DNA of 27,309 nt, from the IMG/VR virus record IMGVR_UViG_3300032401_000066, positions 1 through 27,309 of that record; one strand, 5' to 3'. The notes under the pieces were generated by a model, which worked only from the letters and a program-made list of their open reading frames with translations, did no database searches and was not told the DNA's origin. The position numbers were made by a program, and so were the translations under genes. The DNA comes from a virus. The stretch's first letter is position 1; every line of letters starts with the position of its first letter. This document shows positions 24,157 through 27,309 of this stretch, in pieces.

Positions 24157-24321
24157 GTGCGCTTAAGTCATCCAACCCATATACGACTAACACCAGACCA
24201 GTTGCAGCGCCTTGACTCATGGCGTGGTAATCGCATGAGTCGCGCCACTGCTATACGGCTACTACTGGAGCAGTCGCTTGACCTGCACCTAAACGGCATC
24301 CTGCCAGCCACTAAGCGATGA
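24157..24321 (+). CDS. Small ribbon-helix-helix protein, GTG start
   Basis: The frame runs from GTG (24157) to a TGA that overlaps the primase start by ATGA. The 54 residues fit the Arc/CopG ribbon-helix-helix fold: strand THIRLTP (7-13), helix DQLQRLDSWRGN (14-25), turn MSRATAIRLLLEQSLDLHL (27-45). RHH proteins bind DNA as dimers through the strand and typically repress their own promoters. Shorter versions from ATG 24235 would lose the strand, so the GTG start is preferred. The next upstream in-frame stop is at 24145. No classic ribosome site is visible, but a promoter and palindrome sit directly before it. Confidence 0.68.
   Translation: MRLSHPTHIRLTPDQLQRLDSWRGNRMSRATAIRLLLEQSLDLHLNGILPATKR
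24214..24241. repeat. Inverted repeat inside the RHH gene
   Basis: GACTCATG (24214-24221) and CATGAGTC (24234-24241) are perfect eight-base arms, 20 bases centre to centre, about two helical turns. It could be a second binding site for a dimeric regulator upstream of the primase gene, or be a chance result of coding sequence. Confidence 0.45.
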
Positions 24322-26369
24322 GCCTTACCGAAGAGCTTGCACGCCTACCCGATAGGTGGGGATATGTCGCTGTCGATGATCAAAAGCGTCCTTATCAGAC
24401 CAAGTGGCAGGAGCGACCACTAGATAAAGATGGCTTGCAGGCTGAGCTAGAAGCTGGCAGCGCCAAGGCCATTGGCGTGTGCTGCGGTGTCCCATCTGGT
24501 GGTTTGCTGTTTCTTGATCACGATGGTCGCAGCGCTAGCACAATCCTCCGCGACTGGGGTTGCCCCATGTCGTCTATGCCGCGTAGCTGGACCGTCACCT
24601 CTGGCCGTGATGGCAGGTTTCAGGTCATCTACCGCGTACCGGAGCAGTACTGGCCAGACATCGCCACGCGCAAATACAAATCCGGCATCACCGACTCCGA
24701 CAACAAGCCAGAGCAGATCGAACTCCGATGGACCGGTTGCCAGTCCGTTGTAGCTGGTGCGCACCCAACCACTACCGGCTACCACTGGGTTGCCAAATAC
24801 AGCCCCGAAGACCTCGACCTAGCAGAAGCGCCGCTGTGCCTGATTGAGAAAATGCTCAAGCCAGTGGCTGAGCCGTTGCCATTGCTGGCGGCTTCTGATG
24901 ACGCAGACCGTGCGCGCTCATACCTTGATGCGCTATCCAGCAGCCGCGCTGATGACTATGACGACTGGCTAAACGTTGGCATGGCGCTCCATAGCGTTGG
25001 TGATGACAGCCTCCTAATCGATTGGGAGCACTGGTCTGCGCAATCCGGCAAGCACAAGCCCAGCGACTGCCAGCGCAAGTGGAAGAGCTTCAAGAAGTCC
25101 GGCATCAGCCTTGGCACCCTTGGCGACATGGCCAAGAAAGACGGCTGGCGCTCGCAGCGCCGTGAACCTAGCCGCACCGTTGCCAGTGGGGCCAGCGATG
25201 GTGGGGGCGATAAGCCGCCGATCATCACCAAGCCGGAGAAGCTGGAAACCGCAGAGCTGTTGGCACTGCTGCGCAGCCAGGCTGATGAGATCCGCTACAA
25301 CGTCTTCACCCAGCAAATCGAGATCAAAGGCAAGGTCGTTGACGGTGCCGACCGCTTCTACCTCAAGCTGGCTGAAATGGGTTACAAGGTTGGCAAGGAG
25401 CTAGCCATTGACTGCCTAGTCCAAGTCGCCAATGAAAACTTTTACAACCCAGTCACCGAGTACCTGCTCCATTGCGAGCAGCACGTTGAGCCGACCTACA
25501 TCGATGGCCTAGCAACCGCGTACCTCAGGCCAGGTGATGGCGGCACCAGTATTTACGACGAGATGCTCAAGCGCACGCTTATCGGCGCTGTTGCCCGTGC
25601 TTTTGACCCTGGCTACAAGCACGACACCGCTTGCGTCATCATGGGCGATCAAGGCGCGTACAAGTCCAGTTTCTGGGGGTGCCTTGGCGGTCCGTTCTAT
25701 TCCGATGCCTTAGGCGACATCAGCACCAAGGATGATGTAATGGTGCTGCACCGTTCCTGGATTATGGAATGGGCAGAGCTTGATCACATTACCAACCGCA
25801 AGCACGCCGGCCAAGTTAAGGCGTTCCTCTCGCAAGCGGTTGACCTACTTAGGGTTCCATACGGTAAAGCCGTTGAGGCATTTCCTCGCCGTGGCATTAT
25901 TGTTGGCACCACCAACAAGACCGCTGGCTTCTTAGTTGATGAAACCGGAAACCGCCGCTTCTGGGTAATTCCTACAACTAAAACCCAGGTCGATCAAATT
26001 AACACCGCAACTCTGCTGATGGAGCGCGATGCGATTTGGTCTGCTGCTGTTCACGCATACCGCAACGGCGAAACTAATCGCCTCCCGCTTGCGATGGAGC
26101 TTGCAGTTCAGCAGGAAAATGATGCCTACATGATTGAATCACCATGGCGTTCAGCCATCCTTACCTACCTTGCTGATCGCCGTTCCATGGAGGTATTGAC
26201 CTCTGAGGAGATCCTCGCCAAGGCCATCCAGAAGCCCATGGAGCGCCAGACCAAGGTGGACCAAATGCAGGTTGCATCCATCCTGAAAGAGCTTGGTTGG
26301 ACCAAACACCGCGAATCATCCGGCAAGCGGCGTTGGTACTACCAGCTAGACGACCAACCTAGGGGCTAG
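24318..26369 (+). CDS. Primase-helicase (prim-pol, PriCT and VirE-like ATPase)
   Basis: The 683-residue protein has three parts. Residues 5-175: bifunctional primase/polymerase fold with Asp67 and Asp69 (LLFLDHDGRSAS) as likely metal ligands and WTVTSGRDGRFQVIYR. Residues 198-276: PriCT-2-like domain (DDYDDWLNVGMALHS then a WEHWSAQS region and WKSFKKSGISLGTL). Residues 415-600: VirE/D5-like P-loop ATPase with Walker A GDQGAYKSS (443-451), Walker B IMEWAELD (482-489), sensor VGTTNKT (529-535) and DETGNRRFWVIP (541-552). It should initiate phage DNA replication by priming and unwinding. It overlaps the RHH gene by ATGA and is followed by the noncoding repeat region. Confidence 0.93.
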   Translation: MSLTEELARLPDRWGYVAVDDQKRPYQTKWQERPLDKDGLQAELEAGSAKAIGVCCGVPSGGLLFLDHDGRSASTILRDWGCPMSSMPRSWTVTSGRDGRFQVIYRVPEQYWPDIATRKYKSGITDSDNKPEQIELRWTGCQSVVAGAHPTTTGYHWVAKYSPEDLDLAEAPLCLIEKMLKPVAEPLPLLAASDDADRARSYLDALSSSRADDYDDWLNVGMALHSVGDDSLLIDWEHWSAQSGKHKPSDCQRKWKSFKKSGISLGTLGDMAKKDGWRSQRREPSRTVASGASDGGGDKPPIITKPEKLETAELLALLRSQADEIRYNVFTQQIEIKGKVVDGADRFYLKLAEMGYKVGKELAIDCLVQVANENFYNPVTEYLLHCEQHVEPTYIDGLATAYLRPGDGGTSIYDEMLKRTLIGAVARAFDPGYKHDTACVIMGDQGAYKSSFWGCLGGPFYSDALGDISTKDDVMVLHRSWIMEWAELDHITNRKHAGQVKAFLSQAVDLLRVPYGKAVEAFPRRGIIVGTTNKTAGFLVDETGNRRFWVIPTTKTQVDQINTATLLMERDAIWSAAVHAYRNGETNRLPLAMELAVQQENDAYMIESPWRSAILTYLADRRSMEVLTSEEILAKAIQKPMERQTKVDQMQVASILKELGWTKHRESSGKRRWYYQLDDQPRG

Positions 26370-26406
26370 ACGGCGAAACGCCTTGCAGCGCAGCGTATCT
26401 CAGCCG

Positions 26407-26415
26407 CCTAACCTC
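26407..26415 (+). repeat. CCTAACCTC motif, left copy
   Basis: This perfect nine-base inverted partner of 26488-26496 is the outermost copy of the CTAACCTC family in the noncoding region. Confidence 0.6.
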
Positions 26416-26465
26416 ACGACCGACCTACCTCCCCTTAAGAGTTACCCCGTACCTCCCCCTACCCC

Positions 26466-26487
26466 TCTATTTACTTATTTTATTTAA
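26466..26487. other. AT-rich tract (possible unwinding element)
   Basis: Twenty of 22 bases are A or T, in contrast to the C-tracts just before it. It lies between repeats of opposite orientation, as expected for a site where strands open. It could instead supply -10-like sequences, although no convincing -35 is seen. Confidence 0.5.
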
Positions 26488-26506
26488 GAGGTTAGGTTGG
26501 TTAGAC
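26488..26506 (-). repeat. Double CTAACC motif, reverse orientation
   Basis: The + strand reads GAGGTTAGGTTGGTTAGAC: two GGTTAG units nine bases apart. Its right half together with the following G (26499-26507) is a perfect nine-base inverted match to CGTCTAACC at 26534-26542. Confidence 0.65.
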
Positions 26507-26534
26507 GGTCGGACAAAGCCAGTCATATCAAGGC

Positions 26535-26554
26535 GTCTAACCTCGTCCAACCTC
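26535..26554 (+). repeat. Tandem ten-base repeat before the RHH gene
   Basis: GTCTAACCTC is followed directly by GTCCAACCTC (one mismatch), ending ten bases before the ATG at 26565. Spacing of one helical turn suits adjacent binding of protein dimers. Confidence 0.65.
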
Positions 26555-26564
26555 TGAAGCGCCC

Positions 26565-26849
26565 ATGCAAGAGATCAAAGTCCGTTTCGAGCCCGCTGAC
26601 CTGACCGCTTTGGACCGCCAAGCGGCAGCATCAGGCACCAGCCGCTCAGCGTTCATTCGCAACAAAGCGTTAAGACCGCCGGTTGCACGGTTGACCACGG
26701 TGGAGTACCATGCGCTGGTTGCTGATGCAGTTAGCGCCATGCGCGGTGACTTGCCTCGGCTGCAGGTTGAATATCTCGTTGCTTATGTCATCACCAGACT
26801 TGATCAACATCAGCGCCAAGCAGTCGCCGGTCATCAACCGACTACATGA
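26565..26849 (+). CDS. Ribbon-helix-helix (CopG/MobC-like) DNA-binding protein
   Basis: The 94-residue protein opens with an RHH unit: strand EIKVRFEP (3-10), helix ADLTALDRQAAASG (11-24), turn and helix TSRSAFIRNKALRPP (25-39). The C-terminal 55 residues form another helical part (HALVADAVSAMRGDLPRLQV then a VEYLVAYVITRLDQHQR segment), as in MobC-like proteins of plasmids and phages. It likely binds the repeats that end ten bases upstream of its start, as autoregulator or as origin-binding protein. It is the second RHH gene around the primase gene. The next gene overlaps its 3' end. Confidence 0.82.
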   Translation: MQEIKVRFEPADLTALDRQAAASGTSRSAFIRNKALRPPVARLTTVEYHALVADAVSAMRGDLPRLQVEYLVAYVITRLDQHQRQAVAGHQPTT

Positions 26850-27003
26850 CTGCATGACGCAAGCGATGGCATACGCCCATGCCATCCGCGACAATGCTCA
26901 AGATGACGGCGTGCCCATCCCCATGGAACTCGTCGCCAGCTTTCAAGACGATTACAACAACATCATCGCTGCACTCAATGAAGCTCACAACATCGCAAGC
27001 TGA
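26785..27003 (+). CDS. Small hypothetical protein between RHH and clamp genes
   Basis: The 72-residue reading starts at ATG 26785 (MSSPDLINISAKQSPVINRL), continues DCMTQAMAYAHAIRDNAQDD and ends with a VPIPMELVASFQDDYNNIIA segment. Codon third positions are G/C-rich from about 26800 onward, which supports translation inside the 65-base overlap with the RHH gene; a start at 26854 would avoid the overlap and give 49 residues. It is helical and acidic, of unknown function. The stop lies 26 bases inside the clamp gene, suggesting translational coupling. Confidence 0.6.
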   Translation: MSSPDLINISAKQSPVINRLHDCMTQAMAYAHAIRDNAQDDGVPIPMELVASFQDDYNNIIAALNEAHNIAS

Positions 27004-27309
27004 TTTAGACCATGCACTGCGCACCATTGCACCTGCAGTAGGCACGCGCAGCTCACACCCGATCCTTGACTGCTGCCTCATCACTGCTGGCGGTGGCAAT
27101 GTCACCATCACCGGCTACAACCTTGACCTAGGCATCACGGTGACCATCCCAGCAGTGGTCAATACCGCTGGCGCTGTAGCGCTGCCGTATCGGCTCCTAG
27201 CTGGCCTTGTAAGCCGTATGGACGCCGGCGATGCCGTGGACATCACAGATGGCGCTGTGAGCGCTCCTGGTGGCTCCTATGGCCTTGCGGTGTCCGATGC
27301 TGCGGATTA
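26978..27309 (+). CDS. dnaN: DNA polymerase III beta sliding clamp, 3' partial
   Basis: The frame opens at ATG 26978 and is still open at the window end, giving 110 residues, about the first of the three domains of a beta clamp. The start MKLTTSQADLDHALRTIAPA, then GTRSSHPILDCCLI, VTITGYNLDLGITVTIPA and GAVALPYRLLAGLVSRM follow the N-terminal pattern of bacterial DnaN, and the wording NLDLGI is close to cyanobacterial versions. The clamp encircles DNA and holds the polymerase. A phage copy would give the phage control over processivity or replace a host clamp. A reading from an earlier start is blocked by the overlap with the small gene before it. The remaining domains are beyond the window. 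Confidence 0.85.
   Translation, partial: MKLTTSQADLDHALRTIAPAVGTRSSHPILDCCLITAGGGNVTITGYNLDLGITVTIPAVVNTAGAVALPYRLLAGLVSRMDAGDAVDITDGAVSAPGGSYGLAVSDAAD

Follow-up and report, generated by a model that had tools for sequence, protein, structure and literature searches.

The noncoding gap at positions 26370-26564 of the window (the whole stretch of viral DNA analysed here, 27,309 nt long) is proposed to be the replication origin of this freshwater cyanophage and, together with the primase-helicase gene that precedes it, to form one exchangeable module; from the sequence comparisons we put the probability of this reading at about 0.88. The reading is adopted because the repeats in the gap travel with the primase-helicase gene, give way to wholly different ones when another gene takes its place, and are found again next to a related gene on a plasmid. 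In its support, the gap keeps its place, its repeats are arranged in inverted fashion and are linked to the initiator gene, gene and gap are exchanged en bloc, and the layout is seen again on a small plasmid. A first-pass annotation had already named the gap as a candidate origin, and the primase linkage, the natural swaps and the layout of the plasmid p2-NIES88 speak for that suggestion. A literature search found no origin described for this group of freshwater picocyanobacterial phages.

Layout of the gap and its conservation in relatives

The first base of the gap is the base after the primase stop codon, in the window as in relatives. Pfam matches bore out the flanks as originally described, with a PrimPol/PriCT_2/VapE helicase gene on one side and a NikA-like RHH gene (RHH2) followed by a clamp gene on the other (Table 1); a 97-aa reading frame at 26710-27003 (+), without a family match, overlaps both RHH2 and the clamp gene. 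The first-pass description of the gap as the longest noncoding one holds only because a missed gene, 24157-24321, fills a 218-nt stretch before the primase; the TGA of this previously unlisted gene overlaps the primase ATG (ATGA). The motifs reported in both orientations were present at coordinates correct to 1-2 bases. Exact copies of CTAACCTC lie at 26408(+), 26488(-) and 26537(+), accompanied by CCAACCTC at 26547(+), GTCTAACC at 26535(+) and 26499(-), and GTCCAACC at 26545(+), and all three CTAACCT copies of the 27.3-kb window are inside the gap. The reported AT-rich tract and strand-biased C-tracts, with a C-rich plus strand, were also recovered, and the order from left to right is C-form copies, C-tract, 20-nt AT-tract, the G-form and again C-form copies.

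Table 1. Coordinates of the features discussed, with the basis for each assignment
Feature	Position	Strand	Basis
Small RHH-like gene, 54 aa, GTG start	24157..24321	+	Translation; similar frame in relatives; positional counterpart of pRN1 orf56
PrimPol - PriCT_2 - VapE (SF3/AAA+) helicase - C-terminal winged helix, proposed initiator	24318..26369	+	Pfam, PDB, Foldseek
Winged helix (H-H-H-E-E), codons 609-677, proposed iteron reader	26142..26348	+	AF2 model
Gap, proposed replication origin	26370..26564	.	Syntenic in 70 distinct relatives; swapped along with upstream gene
Left core dyad ACGCCTTGCAGCGCAGCGT	26378..26396	.	Sequence differs among relatives, dyad often kept
Left iteron set, C-form CGCCTAACCTC + CGACCGACCTACC	26405..26429	+	Motif positions
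Pyrimidine/C-rich tract	26426..26467	+	Sequence; also seen in relatives' alignment
AT-rich tract, proposed melting site	26468..26487	.	19/20 A/T; AT-rich in relatives
Right iteron set, G-form GAGGTTAGGTTGGTTAGACGG	26488..26508	+	Motif positions
Right core dyad GCCAGTCATATCAAGGC	26518..26534	.	Relatives' alignment and inverted-repeat comparison
Outer right iterons, C-form CGTCTAACCTC + CGTCCAACCTC	26534..26554	+	Motif positions
NikA-like RHH gene (RHH2)	26565..26849	+	Pfam PF21983 1.4e-7; copies with 90-94% identity next to other iterons
Beta-clamp N-terminal part, cut by window end	26879..27309	+	Pfam PF00712 4e-9, phrog_947 1.8e-18

The repeated-7-mer score of the gap was 17, against a maximum of 14 in 500 shuffles of the gap; since the same score is reached by ~6 of 543 window tiles of equal size, the window alone is no proof and the case rests on the relatives. 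The inverted repeat of the window gap is weak, 18 of 300 shuffles being as good. DnaA boxes (TTATNCACA with at most one mismatch) were not found in the gap. GC skew, raw or coding-strand-corrected, was uninformative: across S-LBS1 and six relatives it did not change direction reproducibly at the gap.

When viral contigs were scanned with the primase or the RHH protein as query, 141 loci were obtained, and the primase-RHH gap was kept in 70 distinct relatives (counted as distinct sequences) at a length of 193-287 nt. Conservation of the repeats in relatives had been put forward as a check on the origin, and the place and layout of the gap are the same in the 70. Folded back on itself, the aligned gap is an imperfect inverted repeat of ~55-65 nt per arm, in which the iterons face each other across the C-tract and AT-tract; this inverted repeat beat all 300 shuffles in most lineages tested, but it is weak in a few lineages besides the window. 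Supportively, none of 500 shuffles scored as high for repeated 7-mers in most relatives, whose scores reach 135-144. The iteron varies between lineages (CTAACCTC near the window, GTCTAACCGTC in L027, GTCCTAACC in L039, and TGCCCTACC in L072, L076 and L081), and copies agree inside each gap. The two iteron sets around an AT-rich region are clearest in L076 and in the isolate S-LBS1, a full tailed phage related to the window phage, in which all 11 genome copies of CCTAACCT fall within 343 nt just 3' of the primase. At the end of the S-LBS1 record (L143, 34268-34641), a segment of ~121 nt from the iteron region occurs twice with a spacing of 253 nt, which is either a true duplication or an assembly artefact. 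Another record, G015 (95,070 bases, locus L015), contains a primase of 98% identity that is truncated at one end and, at 86163-87029, another PrimPol match that is distant, so that it possibly holds two replication genes or is chimeric.

Long hairpins form when the gaps of relatives are folded (z down to -6.7), as might be expected of a transcript-end or RNA element acting in termination, mRNA stability or attenuation. We regard such an element, in place of an origin, as very unlikely: no intrinsic terminator was found in the gap region, no Rfam family matched in the gap, the folding of the window gap is ordinary (z -0.8), and multi-copy, phased, lineage-specific motifs on both strands resemble protein sites.

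Linkage of the repeats to the primase-helicase gene

The main alternative offered by the first-pass annotation was that the repeats are an operator array through which RHH2 represses its own promoter. RHH proteins often bind short repeats, and the gap directly precedes RHH2. The main prediction of this model fails in natural swaps, in which an RHH2 90-94% identical to that of the window sits behind two other primase-helicase types: L082, L087 and L094 carry a Zn-ribbon/Toprim-like primase-helicase, gap repeats GTTACG and then such an RHH2, and L086 and L088 a D5_N/DUF5906 primase-helicase, gap repeats GCGTCCG and then such an RHH2. Closely similar RHH2 genes are therefore preceded by wholly different repeats when the primase-helicase differs. 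Reciprocally, the repeats persist where no RHH2 was found after the primase (L073, L074, L077, S-LBS1 and L162). Over all loci, the repeats stay with the primase-helicase gene whether the next feature is an RHH gene, another small gene, a tail gene or, in S-LBS1, the end of the record. In S-LBS1 no RHH gene follows the iterons, and a small gene resembling RHH proteins (A51) precedes the primase. Two metagenome-derived bacterial contigs, L161 and L162, have a protein other than RHH2 after the primase; repeat-like motifs 3' of the primase are clear in L162, and in L161 there are a few by eye but no statistical excess. Furthermore, L052 has an RHH2 closer to that of another lineage, yet keeps the repeats of its own group, and no sigma-70 promoter match was found in the region, although such scans are weak for phages. 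An RHH2 operator is thus highly improbable.

The borders of similarity define what is exchanged. In the swapped loci, left-hand similarity to the window stops at the primase start and right-hand similarity restarts at 26562/26565, which is the RHH2 start codon; the exchanged unit is therefore the initiator gene plus the gap. Such joint exchange is inconsistent with an RHH2 operator and agrees with an initiator that moves along with its cognate origin. RHH2 is outside the exchanged unit and is unnecessary for the repeats. One junction carries three initiator types with three iteron classes, an association that suggests, at the level of sequence, initiator-specific iterons.

A counterpart frame of the small gene 24157-24321 lies at the same place in most lineages, swapped cassettes included. 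Its product looks like an RHH protein: Pfam RHH_1 matched below cut-off in two relatives (E 0.02-0.03) and did not match the window copy. The gap could accordingly be an origin whose iterons are read by this small protein and not by the winged helix of the primase-helicase. In most lineages this gene, too, goes with the primase; in pRN1 the same place is taken by ORF56, which acts as transcriptional repressor and copy-number protein (PMC4234260); and the swap is compatible with such a reader because similarity to the swapped cassettes (24282-24323, 86-90%) reaches only the 3' end of the gene. We nevertheless consider this reader unlikely, since the repeats adjoin the primase end and are not placed before the small gene, the plasmid p2-NIES88 has the same iterons and, by annotation, no pre-vapE gene recognised as RHH, and the isolated C-terminal domain of Cch2 binds the Cch2 iterons (PMC7581432).

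The plasmid evidence favours the primase-helicase as the partner of the repeats. When plasmids were searched at the protein level, p2-NIES88 from Microcystis aeruginosa (NZ_AP024567, L164; 3,117 bp, two annotated genes) was found to carry CCTGCCCTACCTGCCCTACC, an ATATATA-rich tract and AGGTAGGGCAGGTAGGGCAGGTAGGG directly 3' of vapE, and all nine of its AGGTAGGG copies lie just 3' of that gene. The putative plasmid origin thus resembles the window in having iterons that flank an AT tract 3' of vapE, and differs in that PrimPol is absent. Its iterons TGCCCTACC / GGTAGGGCA are identical to those of the phage relatives L072, L076 and L081, and the plasmid and phage proteins have only the helicase and winged helix in common (31-36% identity), which indicates that part as the iteron reader. 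Eight more distant cyanobacterial VapE plasmids (Nostoc, Phormidium and others) had no such arrays 3' of the gene, NIES-298 among them being covered for 145 nt only.

The predicted initiator and its relation to known replicons

The primase-helicase matched PriCT_2 (1.4e-19) and VapE (1.3e-59) in Pfam. Its sole PDB profile match at E<=0.01 was 7pds (E 6.8e-33). This structure, of the VapE-type helicase PriRep1 with dsDNA, was also the best Foldseek match of the model. By Foldseek, the N-terminus matches the NrS-1 and pRN1 ORF904 primase-polymerases. Residues 3-290 match CyRepA1-family replication proteins of Synechococcus elongatus plasmids, whereas for the C-terminal part the matches are VapE proteins from other cyanobacterial plasmids. 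AF2 modelled the winged helix at pLDDT ~75-86 and the helicase core poorly; between lineages, the winged helix belongs to the most variable parts of the protein. Residue 654, in the third helix of this domain, is Asp in every one of the six distinct primases that make up the GCCCTACC class; the remaining 65 have Ser or Ala there, and p2-NIES88 also has Asp at the matching position; as the six phage primases are mutually related, this association is a lead, not proof. We advance only tentatively the wider proposal that these cyanophages swap at least three mutually dissimilar initiator-origin cassettes at a fixed junction between two small RHH-like genes, with the winged helix reading an iteron code (Asp 654 with GCCCTACC).

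The mechanism that we propose is modelled on the PICI, SaPI and Cch2 initiators, each of which has its origin immediately downstream of its gene. In this model the iterons, arranged as two opposed sets, would be bound by the winged helix at the C-terminus of the PrimPol-VapE protein; two helicase rings would then load in head-to-head orientation and open the AT-tract that separates the sets, the PrimPol domain would prime on the exposed single strands, and replication would start at the gap and run in both directions.

A PICI/SaPI-type, pRN1-like initiator-origin module fits the gap and the primase-helicase best. The origin of PICIs has an AT-rich region with an iteron set on either side and lies immediately downstream of the initiator gene (PMC6092414), a position shared by SaPIs (summarised in PMC7581432). 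The PICI/SaPI pri-rep-ori shares with the window the origin directly 3' of the initiator gene, the two iteron sets around an AT-rich region, a VapE/D5-type AAA+ helicase initiator with a C-terminal DNA-binding domain (here predicted), and an initiator with its own iterons (here suggested by association); the present modules differ in belonging to tailed cyanophages, in joining PrimPol and helicase in one protein and in having a small RHH-like gene on either side. A PICI as such, a small satellite without structural genes, was rejected, as tail genes are present in the window (tape measure matches) and S-LBS1 is a full tailed phage. The pRN1 replicon requires orf56, orf904 and sequence 3' of orf904 (PMC4234260), and the missed small gene overlapping the primase start gives the window the same order of small regulator gene, PrimPol-helicase and origin. 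The Rep of Bordetella phage BIP-1, for which a downstream origin was proposed (PMC4234260), has the PrimPol-PriCT_2-SF3 order of the window protein, and in pRN1 and BIP-1, as here, the origin region is able to form stem-loops of poorly conserved sequence. However, iterons are lacking in the pRN1 origin, which consists of one large stem-loop, whereas phased iterons dominate here and the window fold has z -0.8; the pRN1 Rep gave no specific binding to its origin in gel shifts (PMC4234260). For SCCmec Cch2, the isolated helicase C-terminal domain specifically binds repeats 3' of the helicase gene (PMC7581432); that putative origin is like the present one in position, and unlike it in having three 5-nt iterons and a separate primase-polymerase. 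The NrS-1 primase-polymerase, similar in its N-terminal fold, primes at TTTGGTTA (PMC8718748), and GTTGGTTA at 26496-26503 is tentatively close to this motif; as a candidate element the motif was rejected, with one near match in the gap and no enrichment in the window.

Implications for cyanophage replication

The gap is very probably a PICI/pRN1-type origin belonging to tailed cyanophages, and its natural swaps are unusually clear. Among bacterial replicons, an initiator gene followed by downstream iterons has been described as a layout found only in PICIs (PMC6092414), and the present case would extend it to tailed phages. The natural swaps, the isolate S-LBS1 and the two-gene plasmid offer direct test systems for origin choice and initiator specificity, and the module is a possible replicon for cyanobacterial vectors. 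If the proposed swapping and iteron-code reading are true, phages and small plasmids such as p2-NIES88, whose iterons are shared with cyanophage relatives, could compete for one another's initiators or borrow them.
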